DNA from: Rhizodiscina lignyota
Lineage: Eukaryota > Ascomycota > Dothideomycetes > Aulographales > Rhizodiscinaceae
Direction of reading: 5' to 3'
Length of the DNA: 64,000 nt
NCBI GenBank assembly: GCA_010015805.1
Contig: ML978123.1
Location: 2,604,001-2,668,000, forward strand
Below the pieces are notes generated by a model, which was not told the DNA's origin, did no database searches, and saw only the letters and a list, made by a program, of their open reading frames with translations. Both the position numbers and the translations under genes were made by a program. Each line of letters begins with the position of its first letter. Positions within the stretch are counted from its first letter, which is position 1. Of the stretch, positions 1-64,000 are shown in pieces.

Positions 1-596
1 GACTCTCTAATCGAGCGCGGTGGTAGCTCCCATACGTGCTGAATCTGTAAGACCTCCATATCACGGTCTGACATGGTCATGATCGAGCTCTGGGGCTGAT
101 CCGGCTCATCGTCAATCGGCACTTCAGCGCCAATATATTCACTCCGTCCAAGGTAGCTCGCGCCAGTAGGAGAGAAGTTGTTCGTATTTCTCCGCGATAG
201 CGATGGCTCGATTGGGATTGGGGCCGCCGTTTCTGTGTCAGTGAACACAACAGACACGCCCTCCACACTTGGTGGATCCTTGATGCCATTTGAGTTCCCC
301 GCAGAGCCCATACTCCCATTCAGCGTCGCGATCCCAGGAAGACTTGTCATATGCCCTCCGCTATGACCATTCGCCGTAGCCATGCTAGCCCTCCGCGCGC
401 CATCACGAGGCGGGCTTGGTGAGAAAGCGCTATATCGCTTCCTCTTGCGCTCGCGGGGTATGCAATCGTCGTAGCCATCCTTGATGCAGTTCGAGCACCG
501 CTGCCCATTCACGGCGTCGAGATCGCATCGAATCTTCTTCTTGTGACAGATGACACACGCCTTAGAAGCACGCGGCCGGGATGCGTCGGCAGGCAT
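1..596 (-). CDS. Zn(II)2Cys6 transcription factor, 3' part outside window
   Basis: The reading frame opens at an ATG at 596 and stays open for 198 codons to the left edge, so only the N-terminus is present. Residues 14-45 form a fungal binuclear zinc cluster with spacing CX2CX6CX9CX2CX7C (C14, C17, C24, C34, C37, C45) and the basic stretch HKKKIRC, followed by a basic KRKRYS linker. The last visible residues contain YLGRSEYIG and ELPPRSIRES, of the kind seen just before the fungal_trans middle-homology domain. The role is nuclear DNA-binding regulation. It lies downstream of, and on the same strand as, the acyl-CoA oxidase gene. It might be a fatty-acid regulator of the FarA/CTF1 type, but that rests on weak resemblance and context. 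Family assignment is firm, target unknown. Confidence 0.88.
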   Translation of the reverse strand, partial: MPADASRPRASKACVICHKKKIRCDLDAVNGQRCSNCIKDGYDDCIPRERKRKRYSAFSPSPPRDGARRASMATANGHSGGHMTSLPGIATLNGSMGSAGNSNGIKDPPSVEGVSVVFTDTETAAPIPIEPSLSRRNTNNFSPTGASYLGRSEYIGAEVPIDDEPDQPQSSIMTMSDRDMEVLQIQHVWELPPRSIRE

Positions 597-56511: not shown

Positions 56512-58192
56512 CTAGTTGTTACCCTTGCCAGCTGCTTCCTTTGCTGCGATCTGGTTGGTTACATGTCAGAGATATCCTGAATCGAGCGTTCCTCTTATGG
56601 GGATCGGCCTACCTGGGCTTCGGTGCTATACGAGGAAGAAAAATCAGCACTCCGTGTGATATTATCGCGGGTGGGGTAACTTACTGATGCGCTTCACGCT
56701 TGTTATTCTTGTTCGCGGCAGCTTCTTTCGCCGCGATCTAACCTGGTGATTAGAGCACTGTTGCGTTCGGGTAGTACGACGAAACATACCTGAGCTTCGG
56801 TGCTGTAAGACGGAAACCAGATTAGCATCTCCGCCTGCATACATCTGCAAGAGAGTATGACTTACTGATGCGCCTCAGGCTCGCGTTTCTCCCAAGATCC
56901 AAACTCATCGACCTCGCTGTCCCACGGGCCGAACTCATCAGGAGCAGGGACGTCGCGAACCTTGTTGTTGTTCTTGTTGGCAGCAGCTTCCTTAGCTGCG
57001 ATCTGAGCCTCCGTGCTTCATCGAGAACATCGATTAGTGCTGTTCACAGTACCTCTACACGACCAACTCACTGGTGGGCCTCGCGAGCCTGGTGCTTGTT
57101 GGCAGCAGCTTCCTTTGCTGCGATCTGGGCCTCCGTGCTTCACAGAGAGGAACAATTTAGTATAATTTAGGATATCCTCGTGCCGGAGGAAACTTACTGG
57201 TGGGCCTCGCGGGCCTGGTGCTTATTAGCAGCGGCTTCCTTTGCTGCGATCTGGTACCGAAGTAAGTAGGGTGTTAATAGTCGAAGACGGCCGACTGTAC
57301 CTGTGCTTCCGTGCTGCACAGAGAAGAGCGATTAGTACTGTTCAAGGTGTCCTTGCACCACAGGAAACTCACTGGTGGGCCTCGCGAGCCTTGTTGTGGT
57401 TGCCGGCAGCGGCTTCCTTTGCTGCGATCTGGTACAAAGGTAAGTAGGGTATTTATCCTCGAGGACGTTTGACAATACCTGAGCTTCCGTGCTAAACGAC
57501 ACGAATTAGCAAACTTTTCGAATTTGAATACAGGTCCGAAGAACATACTGGTGCGCTTCACGCTTGTCCACCCAAGAGCCGAACTCGTCAACCTCGCTGT
57601 CCCATGGTCCAAATTCATCCGGAGCAGGGGTATCGCGGCGCTGGTTGCCCTTTCCAGCTGCTTCCTTTGCCGCAATCTGGGCTTCGGTGTGATGCGCCTC
57701 ACGCTTGTCAACCCAAGAGCCGAACTCGTCAACCTCACTGTCCCACGGTCCAAATTCGTCTGGAGGAGGAGTGGCACGGCGTTGGTTGCCTTTGCCAGCC
57801 GCTTCCTTCGCCGCAATTTGGGCTTCGGTGTGATGCGCCTCTCGCTTATCGACCCAAGAGCCGAACTCGTCGACCTCGCTATCCCATGGTCCAAATTCAT
57901 CTGGAGGAGGGGTGGCCCGGCGTTGGTTGCCCTTTCCAGCCGCTTCCTTCGCCGCAATCTGGGCTTCGGTGTGATGCCTTTTATCAAACTCTACGTCGGG
58001 AATCATAGCCCTCTCAGCCGGAGAACCCTTGTGATGGATCAGCAAACATCTCCATGAAGGGGATTAACGGATGCGTACAACATAACGTCTCTCTACGTCT
58101 GTACTCGGAACTCCGAGAGCGCGTCCAGCGACAAGAGGACTAGAGGCCAAAAGGCCAAGAACGAAAGCCTGCGTAACAGAGACGGAATACAT
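56512..58192 (-). CDS. Candidate dikaritin-type RiPP precursor with Kex2-bounded repeats
   Basis: Twelve exons encode 353 residues: 58192-58079, 58027-57549, 57491-57479, 57428-57373, 57313-57301, 57250-57198, 57137-57072, 57015-56866, 56802-56790, 56737-56685, 56625-56613, 56550-56512. All introns are GT-AG, 50-63 nt, frame-preserving. Residues 1-23 form a signal peptide. The rest is nine copies of a spacer unit HHTEAQIAAKEAA; four copies also carry PDEFGPW followed by DSEVDEFGSW and then a VDKR or EKR dibasic site and EA. The dibasic sites fit Kex2 cleavage, the EA fits dipeptidase trimming. The pattern acidic residue, aromatic-starting four-residue core (FGPW, FGSW), V-D-K-R resembles the general layout of ustiloxin-type precursors (established family knowledge). 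Two UstYa genes lie next to it. It could instead be a Kex2-processed repeat protein without cross-links. A TATATAAGG lies at 58347-58355. Confidence 0.78.
56551..57548 (-). repeat. Repeated exon-intron units in the precursor gene
   Basis: Six introns interrupt the second His codon of HH (CA|C) at 57548-57492, 57372-57314, 57197-57138, 57071-57016, 56865-56803 and 56684-56626. Four introns lie after the CAG of TEAQ at 57478-57429, 57300-57251, 56789-56738 and 56612-56551. Introns at the same place share sequence (for example the CCCTACTTAC..GTACCAG 3' parts of the two at 57429 and 57251), so exon plus intron were duplicated together. Confidence 0.85.
57554..57976 (-). repeat. Three tandem 141-bp repeats in precursor exon 2
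   Basis: Units 57976-57836, 57835-57695 and 57694-57554 each encode 47 residues from HHTEAQ to KREA. Units 1 and 2 are identical in protein; unit 3 has two substitutions (A to D and P to A before PDEFGPW). Confidence 0.95.
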
Positions 58193-58832
58193 GGCTGCTT
58201 TCGGAAAAGAATGTATACAACTGAAGAAGGATTCAAAAGACTGCCCAGCAGTGGAGTAGAATGCAAATGAAGAGAAGGAATGAGAGCAAATGAGAAGAAA
58301 TGTAAGCTTGAAGTGGCGTGATGAATAACAGCAGACGGCTGAATGGCCTTATATATGGTGGACAGGCGCACCGCAGATTCAGTGTGGCTCACCACTTACC
58401 AGTTCGCTAGAGACTACGCGGCGGGAGGAGGCTCGGTTAGTGATTGGATCTTCATTGAGGGATGAAGACTTGTCCGTTGAGTGTTTCCGAGCTGTTCTCA
58501 ATCGCACATCATCGCCGTGGTCCGTCTCCTACGTGGATACTGGTCCTTGCACCGTAACCGCCCGTTTTACACTTCTGATACAAGAAACATGGCGTTCTTG
58601 TCATTCCGTGGTTAGGCCGAAAAAATTGAGGTAAATATATCCGGAACTGTCTCAGGACGAAACTAAGGGGAATAGCATTCCTTTTTGCAATTTTGCTTGT
58701 GCATCGAGTCATTGTATGAGAGATATCGGCTGCTTCGCTGTATCCTCATTTTTCAGATTTTTCTCATTCGCAACTTCCTCAAGCATTCTCATTTCCAATT
58801 TCTTTAAAATACTACCATCGAATTCAGCTACA
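58193..58832. promoter_or_regulatory. Divergent promoter of precursor and first UstYa gene
   Basis: 640 bp between two divergent starts. A TATATAAGG faces the precursor at 58347-58355. No gene is seen inside. Co-control is inferred. Confidence 0.5.
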
Positions 58833-59723
58833 ATGAGTCACAAATATCAGTCTTTACCCTTCGAAGCTGAGAAGCACTATGCGACTCACTCCGATTCCTC
58901 ATCCACAATCGGCGATCCCGACGATCTAGATGCGAAATCAGACCTCGAGTTCGATGAGGTCGAGCTCGGCATCCAAAAACCCTCCCTCAGAGAAAGGCTC
59001 CGGCTATCATGGCTTTGGCCGATCCATGCCATTCTTTTCATGACCTCCTTCACGCTCTTCATGTTCTCAATCACTCTTCAACCATCGACATTACAGCATG
59101 TCGAACAATTCTCCGCCTGGTCACCGGCAGAGGACGCTGTCAGTTACGAAACAGTTCGATTTAACATCACGACGAAAGAAAATCGATTCGTCGGCTCTGG
59201 CCCCGCAGTCGATCAAGCCTGGAGAGAAATTTCATACGATGTTGGCGACCAATGGCTGTCTAAGACCGACCTCGCGAGGCTCGGCATGCCTGAGACTTCC
59301 GTGAAGGTAGACCACCCTCAGACAGGTGAGGAAGGTTACCGTGTAGGAATGGAGGTATTTCACCAGCTCCACTGCCTCAACCTTCTCCGAAGGGTGACGT
59401 ACAAAGAGTACTACGAGCCACTCGGGGGTGAGTTTGCGGGTGGGCGCAAGGAACTGCAGGAGCATACAGGTAAACACTTTCGTCCCCCCTTTGGTTGAAC
59501 AGCACTGAACAAGCGTATAGACCATTGCATCGAAGTACTCAGGCTAAACTTGCTCTGTAACGCGGACATTGGTGTCTTTACGCTCTACATGGTGCCCGGA
59601 GATCCATTGGCATGGCCCGAGCTCAACTCCAAACATGTATGCCGGAATTTCGATGGCGTGCGGCAGTGGGCACTTGACAACTCGGTGGGAAACATGGAAG
59701 CGGGCGACTTAGTGAACAGTTGA
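58833..59723 (+). CDS. UstYa-family (DUF3328) oxidase, copy A
   Basis: Two exons (58833-59469, 59521-59723) encode 279 residues. After a polar acidic N-terminus there is one membrane helix (about residues 60-82, LWPIHAILFMTSFTLFMFSI), then the UstYa domain. The two diagnostic motifs are HQLHC (177-181) and HTDHC followed by IEVLR (211-220); the second is interrupted by the intron at 59470-59520. These His/Cys pairs define the DUF3328 family, whose members UstYa/UstYb and related proteins are required for oxidative macrocyclisation of ribosomal peptides (established) and some act in other pathways. It is divergent from the precursor gene. It likely acts in the secretory lumen. Confidence 0.93.
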
Positions 59724-60753
59724 AGCCAAGGTCAAGCGACGATGTAACTGTACTCCGTAGAATAGGGAGAAATGGCACAATTTTATGAAACGTCGGCATC
59801 GCTTTAATCGATTCATGTTCCAACCAGCAACGGGGAAGACTGCTCGAGCCTTCAAGTGCCACCTTCTTGTTACAAACATTAGCTAATGGTTGCCGTGTAC
59901 ATGCTGTTTGTTTAAGCTCGACGCTTAAGGTTGATGTTAGTGATGACGCCTTTGTGGAGAAATGCTATTAGCCGTCGAAACGTCGCCCCACAGTCTGTGA
60001 CATCTCGCTTAGCGAAACTAGCCACATTAACCCCTTTTTCTCCCTTGCAACAACATCCCATAAATCTCGCTTTCGGGCCATTTTGTGAGGACTCGTTACA
60101 GAAGTCCGGTCTCTATCCGGAAAACCGGTCGACGGGTGAGACTCGATTGGCTCCTGTCCATCTCCATCAGCGTGAACCCCTCCGCTCTGAAACGATGTCT
60201 CGGCTCCTAGCGCTCGTCAAAAGGCGCCGTCCAGGTCCTTTGTTTGACATTGCAAGGTCGGGGACTGCCAGATCAGGATACAAAAAACAATTGTGAGCTA
60301 ATTAACCCGTTTGGCGCCTCCGAGTCAAGCGCGTCTCCGACTGGTCGTCTGTGAATTCCGACCAGCCGCCGTCTTTACAGCGCACACCATCGCACCTCAA
60401 ACAGCGCCATCGGGGCTCTTCTGACTGTGCTGTTAATGTGGATCTGACAGCGTCTGTTACAACTGACCGTGAGCAAAATTGAGTGCAAACATGTTTCTTG
60501 TCTCAGCAATACGGACTTTTAGTCGAGATAATGGCTCGGTAGTTATCTTCCACCAGAGCAGACGGCAGAAGGTGTGCACCCAACCACACGTTCACTGTTT
60601 TCCGCCCTGATACTTCCTTTCGCATACTATAGTAATTTGGTCTGAATTTCCGAGACTCTGAGAGTCCAGTCTTCTATTCAGCTTGACCGTTTTCTATCGT
60701 GCACTTCCATTCCACAGACCGAAAAGGAAGACGTTGTCGCTGCCGCCTTACGA
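59724..60753. other. intergenic between the two UstYa genes
   Basis: About 1 kb. One TACTCCGTA motif at 59751-59759. A 121-codon frame (59931-60296) has no recognisable content. Confidence 0.5.
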
Positions 60754-61844
60754 ATGGATGAGAGCAGATATCCCATGTTGCCGCTCCGTCGGATTGACGA
60801 AGATGAAGAGGAAAAGCTTGGAGATAATTACTCAGACAGCACTAAGATATCGTCGAGATCCACATCACCACACGTTAAGTTTCTGTCACCGATACGAGAA
60901 AGCGAAGAGTCCAACCCAACTTGGTCGCACTTGAGAGAGGGCCAGCCAAGAAGATCAGAAGCCTGCTTGACGTGGGCGCGCTGGGTGGTTGTAGTGTGTC
61001 TGCAGTGCATTCTTATCGCAGCGGTCCTGCTTCCACGGAGTGCGGGTGTGAGAGAGCAGCAAGCGGAACTCCAGGGGAAGACTGTCGAGACCGGAGATGA
61101 CATCAATGGCTTATACAAGACGCGTAAGTCCTCTGAAGATACTGCTGAAGCTATGGAACTAACAGTCTTCATATTAACAGTATCACACTCGTACGAGTAC
61201 CTAACATTCGACGCTGAGAAGTTCGTTCCGAACATGACCACGAACGCCAATCGGATGGAAGTGAGGAGAAATTGGGATATGCTCATGCCGTGTAAGTATT
61301 TCATGAGCCATTGCTCTTCCCATCTCCTGTCTGCCATTCTTCTTTGACATCTCGTCCTGGTGTCTCAATCCGTTCCGACGCTAATTGAAATAAATAGTGG
61401 GAAGTGGTAGCGTCGCAATCCCGAACTATCGAGACCACCCTCTCCTCGGGAATCCCATTACAGATGACCCAATCCGCTCCGGCCCCTTGTTTGAGGCTTC
61501 CTGGACACACTCTTTACATTGTGTAAGTGCCTATCGTTCATCCTCTATCTCGCACCGCCGAACACATTACCAACACTGTGCAGCTATACTACGTTGTGGA
61601 CTCCTACCACCAACTCATCGTCAACGGCCGTAGTGATGTCGACAACCCATATCATGCCACCCATTGCTTCGAGTACTTGCGCACAAGCATTGTGTGCAAC
61701 CTCGACATGACGCTCGAAGGAGAGCAATCGACAGGGGCCGATAAAGAGAGGGGACAGCCGCATGTGTGCCGGAACCGTGAGGAAGCCGTCAAGTGGATCG
61801 AGGACAGGAGAGTGGATGACATGCAAGATATTGTCGGGCCATAA
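60754..61844 (+). CDS. UstYa-family (DUF3328) oxidase, copy B
   Basis: Four exons (60754-61123, 61181-61291, 61398-61522, 61584-61844) encode 288 residues. The N-terminal 70 residues are polar, followed by one membrane helix (about 74-95, WARWVVVVCLQCILIAAVLL). The catalytic-type motifs are HSLHC (about 198-202, ending exactly at the third intron) and HATHC followed by FEYLR (about 226-235). YRDHPLLGNPITDDPIRSGPLF and the C-terminal CRNREEAVKWIEDRR also fit the family. It is clearly different from copy A, not a recent duplicate. Paired, non-identical UstYa proteins next to a repeat precursor are the standard layout of fungal dikaritin clusters. Confidence 0.92.
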
Positions 61845-62387
61845 ATGCAAAGGTATCCCGCGAATGAGGACAATGCGTCTGCTGGTTTCAGATCGCCACT
61901 CGAGAAGAGCTGTGGCTGTCGTCAAGGAGACGATTGCCGAATTCTAGCGTTCCTTCGCAGAACATTGTGCTTAAGGCTGACAAGGCTTCTGCGGAAGTTG
62001 AACTGCTCCTCCACTGGGGGTGTGCGCGGGTGTTGCTGTTACTTCTGCCGAGCTCGAACCCCTTCTCGGCGATGTGGGTGGCTGGCTCGGAAGATGCTTC
62101 CAAGCTCAAATCACTTCGCAACAAACAATGCAGCTTGTGCAATAGTTGCATGTACTGAAATCAAATACAATTCCATCGCCTTACAGGCCGCAATAATTCT
62201 CTGACATTCATGGATGCCTCAGTCTGCGATCAGCTATGCCTATCATTGCAGTCAAAGAACAAACAACCAAGAGATAGAAAAGGCATATGATAACGACACA
62301 TCGATATATGTATCATGCATGTTGAAAAGCTCGCTAAAGTCTACAGGATATCCTACTTATTACATGAAACTGACCAAGCTCCAAACC
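61845..62387. other. intergenic between convergent genes
   Basis: About 540 bp of 3' flanks; nothing recognised. Confidence 0.6.
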
Positions 62388-64000
62388 TTAACTCCGGTTG
62401 ACAGCATGCTTACTCATTTGCCGTATCCTATGTCCATAGAAGTAAAACACATACGGTACGGGTACCAAAAGCGCACTGATGGCCCCCAAAATCGTCAGAG
62501 TCCAATGCACTCCCATATTCTCGTAGAACGGAATGCCCACGACCGTCATCCCGCCAGCAGCCCAGTACCGGATCAACGTCACGCTCGCGAGTGCAGAAGC
62601 GCTGTACACCTCATACACATCGATGATGTACATGTACGAGCTGATGAATATGCACAAGACGCCATATCCGAAAAGCACAGAGGCCAGGAGCGGTGACCAG
62701 ATAGAAATTGACGGGTAGCTCGTCCATCCCATCCAAAACAGTGACACCGGTATCGCGACTGCGCCGCCTAGCATCGCGAACCAAAGGCGGAATTCTGGTG
62801 GCAGTTTGCTGCCACCTTCTTCTTCGATCTTGCGCAAGTCGCGCTTCGCCCATCTGTAAATGATTGGGACTGGTCCCATGGAGGCGACGAGTCCCACGCC
62901 GATGCCGAGGAACAGGAGACCGGTGATACCGACCGAAGTGCCGTGGACGTCAGCAAAGATGTATTCGTAGCCGTCGAAGAATGTAAAGAGGACGATATAT
63001 ATGACCGTCAGATATAGCGCTACGAGCATTATAATCGGTTCGGTCGCGGTAAGGACAATTGGGCGATAGAGCGCTGTCCGGAGACGTGTGAGGAAAGTTT
63101 CGTCGCGGATCTCAACGGCTGCACGATATCTGTCATCCCCAGTGACTCGGCGCAGGTGGGCAGCGCGCCATTTGAGTAAGATCGGAGCATATGTTTCGGG
63201 TTGGAAGAGGAAGAGGAGGGCAAGAATAAGGCCAGCCATGAGGAGCGTGCTCCACTCAGTCCAACGCCAACTGACTACGTTGCTTTGCACAATGAAACCG
63301 CCCATGACCTTTTTGGGACGTCAGCTATGTTTACATCATCAAGAGGGAATGATTAGCTTACCGGTCCAACAACGGTCCCCTCAAATGCCATAGACGCAAA
63401 GAAGGGGAAAGCAATAATGCGTTGCATAGGCTTCCATAAGTCTGCAATACTGCCGCCTGCGCACACTAATGGAGTGCTGCCAAAAATGCCGGCGATGAAG
63501 CGGAAGGCGAGCTGAGCTCCAATGTTTGGTGCGAGTCCTGAAGCCATGATGAAGATAGAGAAGAGGAGCATTGTGACGATGTAAACTGGGTTGCGCCCGA
63601 CGGTCTCAGAAAATGGTCCTGCGAATAGTGCTCCAGCTCCGAAGCCAATGAGATAGATACCTGGTATCGTAAGTCAGTAAGGAGTGTTCGAATATATATT
63701 ACGGGGGCCCAAGCGGGCCACATACCTGTCGCCAGACTCTCCGTCACTTGGCTAACACCAAACTCAGCGGCAGCCTCGTGGACGGCGGTACTATCAATAC
63801 TGGCTGCAACGCTAACGACAAAGGCGACAGCTGCAACCATTATTGTTGCGAAGATTCTGATACCATAGCCCCAATTGTGTGGGTTCATAGGGTCGTCCGG
63901 TCCTTGATACCCTACAACGAACACCTGTTGGCTGACGCCAGGTAGCCCTTTACCCTCATGCGTCGTCCTCGAGCGTATGTCGATGCCAGTTAAAGAGTGT
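62388..64000 (-). CDS. MFS drug/polyamine-type exporter, 5' end outside window
   Basis: Three exons are visible (64000-63726, 63660-63362, 63308-62388); the frame is open to the right edge, so the true start lies beyond it. About 498 residues are present. The N-terminal EGKGLPGVSQQVFVVGYQGPDDPMNPHNW is the usual cytosolic lead-in of DHA1-type MFS transporters of fungi. Helical segments follow from IRIFATIMVAAVAFVVSVAAS onward, with GPFSETVGRNPVYI after helix 2 and WRWTEWSTLLMAGLIL before the central loop, and the C-terminus YFYGHRIRQMSKHAVNRS. It probably exports a small molecule through the plasma membrane. Its position beside the UstYa genes suggests export of the peptide product, which is an inference. 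Confidence 0.88.

Follow-up and report, generated by a model that had tools for sequence, protein, structure and literature searches.

What peptide is made by a locus in which a probably secreted repeat protein lies beside two UstYa/DUF3328 genes? The question is raised by the right-hand end of a 64,000-nucleotide stretch of the Rhizodiscina lignyota genome (Dothideomycetes, order Aulographales; 33.4-Mb assembly), which corresponds to positions 2,604,001 to 2,668,000 of contig ML978123.1 and is referred to here as the window. A preliminary description of this DNA found, within 7.5 kb, a repeat precursor, two non-identical UstYa/DUF3328 genes that each have the two HxxHC motifs, and an MFS exporter, and interpreted them as a dikaritin-type gene set with an FG[P/S]W core and a new product. 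Gene models and Pfam matches confirm this arrangement and show that the MFS gene extends beyond the window. Together with the motifs, conservation, and linkage described below, they point, at the level of sequence, to a compact and conserved three-gene ribosomal-peptide cassette: one gene for the precursor, which would be secreted, and two for UstYa/DUF3328 oxidases with orthologues in other genera. The interpretation that we favor, and consider on balance probable, is that a His-His peptide trimmed by Kex2 and Ste13 is oxidized by two copper UstYa enzymes, with an FG[P/S]W peptide as an optional second product.

The precursor gene and its repeats

The precursor gene, coding for a Kex2-processed repeat protein (KEP), runs from 58192 to 56512 on the minus strand and has 12 exons (58192-58079, 58027-57549, 57491-57479, 57428-57373, 57313-57301, 57250-57198, 57137-57072, 57015-56866, 56802-56790, 56737-56685, 56625-56613, and 56550-56512), giving a spliced model of 1062 nt in frame and 353 amino acids with an N-terminus that is hydrophobic as judged by eye. 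Its 11 introns all have GT-AG ends and are 50–63 nt each. Nine copies of HHTEAQIAAKEA, the HHTEAQIAAK-type repeat, lie between 56533 and 57976 on the minus strand, with first codons at 57976, 57835, 57694, 57553, 57377, 57202, 57076, 56870, and 56689, and four copies of DEFGPWDSEVDEFGSW, which carry the FG[P/S]W segment, lie between 56892 and 57901 on the same strand (57901-57854, 57760-57713, 57619-57572, and 56939-56892). A KEP is defined by a signal peptide and by at least three repeats separated by KR, RR, or KK; among the nine repeats here KR precedes six and a single Arg (in the form AR) the other three. A 98-residue repeat query against the whole genome matches the precursor gene alone.

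Three of the HHTEAQIAAKEA copies are uninterrupted in exon 2, and introns interrupt the last six of the nine, at either or both of two positions that recur from copy to copy: within the second His codon and between the Gln and Ile codons. In each of the six, splicing yields exactly the repeat seen in exon 2, so the 12-exon model is not a chance product. Tandem Repeats Finder reports arrays of 141 bp x 3.0 and 126 bp x 2.3 at the gene, and several introns are duplicates of one another (the pairs I3/I5, I4/I6, I4/I7, and I8/I10, with z of 6.8 to 10.8 from 60 letter shuffles of each pair), so that the repeat units were duplicated together with their introns. The unit lengths (66, 69, and 150 nt) are divisible by three, and exon skipping would therefore be expected to preserve the frame. 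We note that the array (56512-58192) holds 13-nt microexons beside the copied introns; variable splicing of it could alter the number of peptides set free. The precursor also has a Pfam match to Rpn9_C (E 3.2e-5; 23.9 bits, below the cut-off of 26.5), which we take to be a helical-repeat artefact.

The UstYa genes and their linkage to the precursor

UstYa-1 (58833 to 59723, plus strand; exons 58833-59469 and 59521-59723) encodes 279 amino acids with a Pfam UstYa match at E 5.3e-52 and the motifs HQLHC and HTDHC; UstYa-2 (60754 to 61844, plus strand; exons 60754-61123, 61181-61291, 61398-61522, and 61584-61844) encodes 288 amino acids with a match at E 3.4e-15 and the motifs HSLHC and HATHC. 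They lie 0.64 kb and 2.6 kb, respectively, from the precursor gene and are both transcribed away from it, and the 640-bp interval that separates the precursor gene from the divergently transcribed UstYa-1 (58193 to 58832) is a possible shared promoter. A public Rhizodiscina lignyota protein, NA57DRAFT_35868, is 100% identical to UstYa-1 across 73% of the query, and is 203 amino acids long as against 279 in the model built here. Solved structures gave UstYa-1 four matches only, with meaningless E values of 0.82–0.96.

The motifs are well kept in both families. All 30 rows of the UstYa-2 alignment keep every His and Cys of the two motifs, one row (P0189) having a two-residue insert inside the second motif. 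In the UstYa-1 alignment (38 rows, 37 distinct) the first motif does not vary and the second is at least 90% kept, its incomplete form in P0045 and P0080 apparently reflecting gene-model gaps. A UstYa-2 orthologue also occurs in Trichoderma reesei (row P0151). The best relatives in other genera are 63–67% identical to UstYa-1 and 61–63% identical to UstYa-2. Within Rhizodiscina lignyota itself the best match to UstYa-1, leaving aside the gene itself, is 36% identical (pieces of 31–39 residues reach 47–55%), and matches to UstYa-2 are 28–46% identical.

The preliminary description had raised the question of precursor orthologues that occur without neighboring UstYa genes. Our count is based on 13 named precursor relatives, the remaining 11 of 24 having no usable context; nine of the 13 are linked to an orthologue of UstYa-1 or UstYa-2, and four could not be linked. 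In seven of the nine (Capronia epimyces, Fonsecaea multimorphosa, Icmadophila, Varicellaria, Xylogone, Ciborinia, and Trichoderma chlorosporum) the orthologue is one to three locus tags from the precursor; in Varicellaria the precursor, UstYa-1, and UstYa-2 have consecutive locus tags, and in Ciborinia UstYa-1 is at the next locus tag and UstYa-2 was not seen. For Talaromyces stipitatus and Trichoderma gracile the link rests on the precursor and the UstYa gene being on equal-sized contigs.

Could the precursor and its two UstYa neighbors be unrelated genes brought together by chance? UstYa genes are certainly numerous here, with 76 exon-level matches merging to 53 and falling into 36 loci. However, from the merged match list, positions with at least two UstYa genes no more than 5 kb away make up just 0.33% of the genome, this locus among them, and the linkage is seen again in relatives from other genera; for these two reasons we reject chance adjacency, to which we give almost no credence.

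The UstYa phylogeny suggested in the preliminary description was run inside each of the two orthologue groups, with 25 rows per tree. In both trees a Helotiales-type group, which also takes in Microthyrium and, in one tree, Venturia, splits from the rest, with support of 100/100 for UstYa-2 and 92/89 for UstYa-1; inner forks are often weak, with 5 of 22 starred in each tree. The lichen rows fall with the rest in the UstYa-1 tree and near the midpoint root in that of UstYa-2. Trichoderma adjoins Xylogone in both, which may reflect either transfer of the cassette or old paralogy.

Two repeated segments

Which of the two repeated segments is the product? We compared 25 precursors, the window precursor and its 24 relatives. 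HHTEAQIAAK-type repeats are present in all 25, with 150 HHTE copies of which 141 read exactly HHTEAQIAAK, and 149 of the 150 are preceded by an Arg followed by zero or more X-[A/P] dipeptides. The cut site is KR or RR in 92 of these 149 and a single Arg in 57; one to five X-Ala/X-Pro dipeptides stand ahead of HHTE in 119 of the 150 copies, 30 have the basic site alone, and all of the inserts are even in length. The sole copy with no preceding basic site is in row P0020, close to its N-terminus and after an alternating stretch that could follow signal-peptide removal. The layout ahead of His-His is, as far as sequence can define it, the Kex2-plus-Ste13 arrangement of alpha-factor, and we read it as setting a mature N-terminus at His-His, with a second peptide of less regular form.

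That second peptide is the one on which the preliminary description was built. The segment is real and conserved, with FGPW in 21 and FG[S/C]W in 23 of the 25 precursors, but the preliminary description did not record HHTEAQIAAK as the commoner (nine copies versus four in the window precursor) and better conserved of the two. The two Trichoderma precursors have FGSW and no FGPW, and those of Ciborinia and Botryotinia have neither FGPW nor FG[S/C]W. The leader ahead of the first FG.W (before DEFG or DDFG) takes 32 forms among 62 copies, and X-Ala/X-Pro dipeptides open some of these and not others. Relative P0018 carries DEFGPWDQDCDEFGCW, in which Cys replaces Ser, perhaps a disulfide-bearing variant.

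A dikaritin with FG[P/S]W as its core, in which HHTEAQIAAK would be a spacer or a recognition sequence guiding the UstYa enzymes, deserves consideration on these data. Recognition segments are frequently the best conserved parts of the precursors of ribosomally synthesized and post-translationally modified peptides (RiPPs), and in this case FG[P/S]W itself is present in most precursors with conserved flanks. The split in the UstYa trees also parallels it, in that the known precursors from genera outside the Helotiales-type group carry FG[S]W and the known ones from Helotiales-type genera (Ciborinia, and Botryotinia by way of its relative Botrytis) do not. Moreover, the segment contains the aromatic residues Phe and Trp, and one report counts UstYs among the enzymes by which aromatic residues are cross-linked (PMC12186524). 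Nonetheless, the segment is outnumbered by HHTEAQIAAK, its leader is variable with an X-Ala/X-Pro start only in some copies, it has no Tyr, and the Ciborinia precursor lacks it even though UstYa-1 is adjacent. Since two precursors are without it, Ciborinia's being beside UstYa-1, and all 25 have HHTEAQIAAK-type repeats, FG[P/S]W is, from this comparison, probably not the only core, and we regard a dikaritin of this kind as rather unlikely.

Proposed trimming and oxidation of the His-His peptide

Under the interpretation that we favor, the precursor would enter the secretory pathway and be cleaved by kexin after Arg, at KR or RR and often at a single Arg, and a Ste13-type dipeptidyl aminopeptidase would then strip the X-Ala and X-Pro dipeptides. 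The result would be many copies of a peptide with the N-terminus His-His-Thr-Glu-Ala-Gln-Ile-Ala-Ala-Lys, and most of the known precursors would also supply another peptide, acidic and containing EFG[P/S]W once or twice. As candidates for the trimming proteases, the genome has one match to the kexin P-domain and one to DPPIV_N. UstYa-1 and UstYa-2 would act through an HxxHC(x)nHxxHC copper site to oxidize (hydroxylate, desaturate, or cross-link) at least the His-His peptide and possibly FG[P/S]W. The accessible text on the DUF3328 protein CctR describes a binuclear copper enzyme acting through the same HxxHC(x)nHxxHC motif, and a family implicated in hydroxylation, halogenation, and macrocyclization (PMC12435403). 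The mature N-terminus of the His-His peptide can be guessed from the sequence, which makes it a precise target for mass spectrometry.

A trimming layout of this type also invites another explanation, in which the product is a linear, unmodified hormone- or pheromone-like peptide released by Kex2 and Ste13, and the UstYa enzymes act only on the FG[P/S]W peptide or adjoin for some other reason. The alpha-factor-like layout, with X-Ala/X-Pro dipeptides in most copies, fits this, and in the available part of Le Marquer 2019 the Ste13 signature is tied to hormones and is absent from the precursors of toxic cyclic peptides (ustiloxin-type) and epichloecyclins (PMC6339444). Against it, mating-factor KEPs are almost never near DUF3328 genes in the survey text (3 exceptions among 227 + 216; PMC7329392), whereas nine of the 13 named relatives here show such linkage. 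At L021, another UstYa locus of this genome, KREAEA spacers likewise occur in a repeat frame, showing that Ste13-type trimming and UstYa can co-occur. We therefore consider an unmodified hormone-like peptide improbable.

Several observations nevertheless weigh against oxidation of a trimmed His-His peptide. The 57 single-Arg cut sites are not classical dibasic Kex2 sites. FG[P/S]W, being itself conserved, may also be a core or even the main one, and the near-invariant HHTEAQIAAK could be a recognition sequence and not a product. Only two of the known precursors lack FG[P/S]W, those from Ciborinia and Botryotinia, which we take to be close kin within the Sclerotiniaceae, so that the argument from absence may depend on one loss; moreover, only UstYa-1 was seen in Ciborinia, and Botryotinia has no linked UstYa among the matches listed. 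Linkage was not seen in four of the 13 named relatives, among them Scytalidium, whose only listed UstYa-1 relative is on another contig. Finally, in the survey as available to us di-histidine is not much commoner in KEPs with DUF3328 (5.7%) than in those without it (3.9%), and because these frequencies are similar the di-histidine motif alone is no pointer to UstYa (PMC7329392).

A more specific proposal, which we advance tentatively and judge unlikely, is that UstYa oxidases acting on a Tyr-free, pheromone-style trimmed peptide with an exposed His-His define an oxidized di-histidine class, modified at His, Ile, or Lys. Its near-identity across several filamentous ascomycete classes would then suggest a conserved signal or metal-binding peptide and not a lineage-specific toxin.

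Relationship to known systems

The cluster shares with ustiloxin, phomopsin, and asperipin-2a Kex2-separated repeats, UstYa homologues beside the precursor, and, putatively, a signal peptide, and it differs in having X-Ala/X-Pro dipeptides. Cyclization of those three dikaritins uses Tyr (PMC7329392, in the text available), whereas Tyr is found in none of the HHTE 12-mers and in none of the 42 FG[P/S/C]W segment variants. The assignment as a dikaritin-type gene set stands for the broad class of a Kex2-repeat precursor with UstYa; because its repeated segments have no Tyr, we do not file the cluster as a strict ustiloxin-like dikaritin, with the proviso that a Tyr core is not universal, some UstYa-linked KEPs being without it. 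A 2022 review puts the number of known dikaritins at only five, these three together with victorin and epichloecyclins (PMC10512285). The best studied of them use tyrosine; the present family is widespread, small, and Tyr-free, and is a clean case for learning what UstYa enzymes do without it.

Ascomycete alpha-factor-type pheromone precursors likewise have repeats in which a basic site is followed by X-Ala/X-Pro dipeptides. Unlike them, the precursor here adjoins UstYa genes, and by inspection its peptide has neither the PYG[L/M]P[I/V]G form nor the two-Cys type of Dothideomycetes, as these are given in the available part of Le Marquer 2019; other conserved motifs mentioned there are EDYXI, DADAATXYV[A/V]D, YVW[G/A][G/S], SPPHKT, QKLKVD, and XSDW (PMC6339444).

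The closest counterpart is KEP type G-3 (#6) of Umemura 2020, a survey that, in the portion available, finds 22% of fungal repeat-precursor genes near DUF3328 genes. Type G-3 has 64 members from 59 strains and 20 genera, a di-histidine repeat motif, and DUF3328 genes within 15 genes in 57 of the 64 (PMC7329392). Six of our ten named precursor genera (Capronia, Talaromyces, Fonsecaea, Trichoderma, Scytalidium, and Botryotinia) are in its list; Rhizodiscina, Icmadophila, Varicellaria, Xylogone, and Ciborinia are outside its 20 genera. Because of the shared genera and di-histidine motif we take the precursor family to be very probably type G-3, a comparison made by genera, motif, and DUF3328 neighbors and not by peptide sequence. 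The cluster is best described as a new member of a family that is very probably already tabulated and is chemically uncharacterized.

Searches for the peptide strings themselves returned little. HHTEAQ, HHTEAQIAAK, and AQIAAKEA do not occur in the texts searched, a scope that excludes supplementary files (HHTEA alone does occur), and among the matches listed for a set of strings that included FGPW and FGSW no title concerns a fungal repeat precursor. The main text of a lichen RiPP survey, in its available portion, reports up to 50 RiPP clusters for Icmadophila and contains neither FGPW nor HHTEAQ (PMC12048977); neither HHTEAQ nor FGSW appears in the accessible text of a Trichoderma RiPP paper (PMC7099791), and that on DUF3328 genes in a Trichoderma virens mutant shows no link to the present cluster (PMC7303927).

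Surroundings and other UstYa loci

The MFS transporter gene, a possible member of the cluster, occupies 62388 to 64000 on the minus strand as its 3′ part, with a stop codon at 62388, approximately 0.5 kb past UstYa-2. Extending the contig to the right, as the preliminary description had proposed, places its start 386 bp past the window (L009:2386); the model has three exons and 626 residues, and matches MFS_1 at E 4.4e-31. Eight long flanking frames were compared with Pfam, window positions 1–36000 lying outside this annotation. Those on the left correspond to a DUF7029/DUF7223 protein, a gamma-tubulin complex protein, a short-chain dehydrogenase, a thiolase, and an AAA protein; those on the right, none more than 28 kb past the window edge, are an MFS piece, a nucleotide-sugar-transporter-like protein, and an amidohydrolase. 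When the whole genome was searched by family, the tyrosinase match closest to the cluster on this contig (C3) was more than 500 kb away, and C3 has no match to the S41 peptidases, a family tied to ustiloxin. Among the matches listed for Zn-cluster regulators (150 of 318 candidates scored), none on C3 falls between 2604435-2604563 (window 435-563) and 2801179, and thus none was seen beside the cluster. An Rfam search of the window gave no match.

Because it has approximately 36 UstYa loci, Rhizodiscina lignyota looks rich in repeat-peptide/UstYa clusters. Kex2-type repeat frames pass a repeat test in nine of 20 ten-kb regions (18 loci) near other UstYa genes, and nothing passes in 82.6 kb of control DNA; the threshold was raised after a first look, and one of the nine passing regions is partly masked and was set aside. 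The others are L017 (C3:335001-345000), L018 (C3:501001-511000), L021 (C2:1456001-1466000), L022 (C2:2302501-2312500), L029 (C24:100501-110500), L031 (C4:724001-734000), L032 (C2:3276001-3286000), and L033 (C5:451501-461500). Tyrosinase-family matches lie a few kb from two other UstYa loci, at C3:509629-510538 (L018) and C11:161667-162317 (L027), and the layout of L018, with both a tyrosinase and a repeat frame, is nearer to that of ustiloxin and phomopsin than is the present cluster. At L021, which has several UstYa matches, the alpha-factor-like KREAEA spacers separate a Tyr-containing unit, QSPDLGTYVYF. L031 has two different Kex2-type repeat frames, one with the unit GELYQNPSEKR and one with the Cys-containing unit FGDDEPWCKEKR, in the 10 kb around its UstYa gene.

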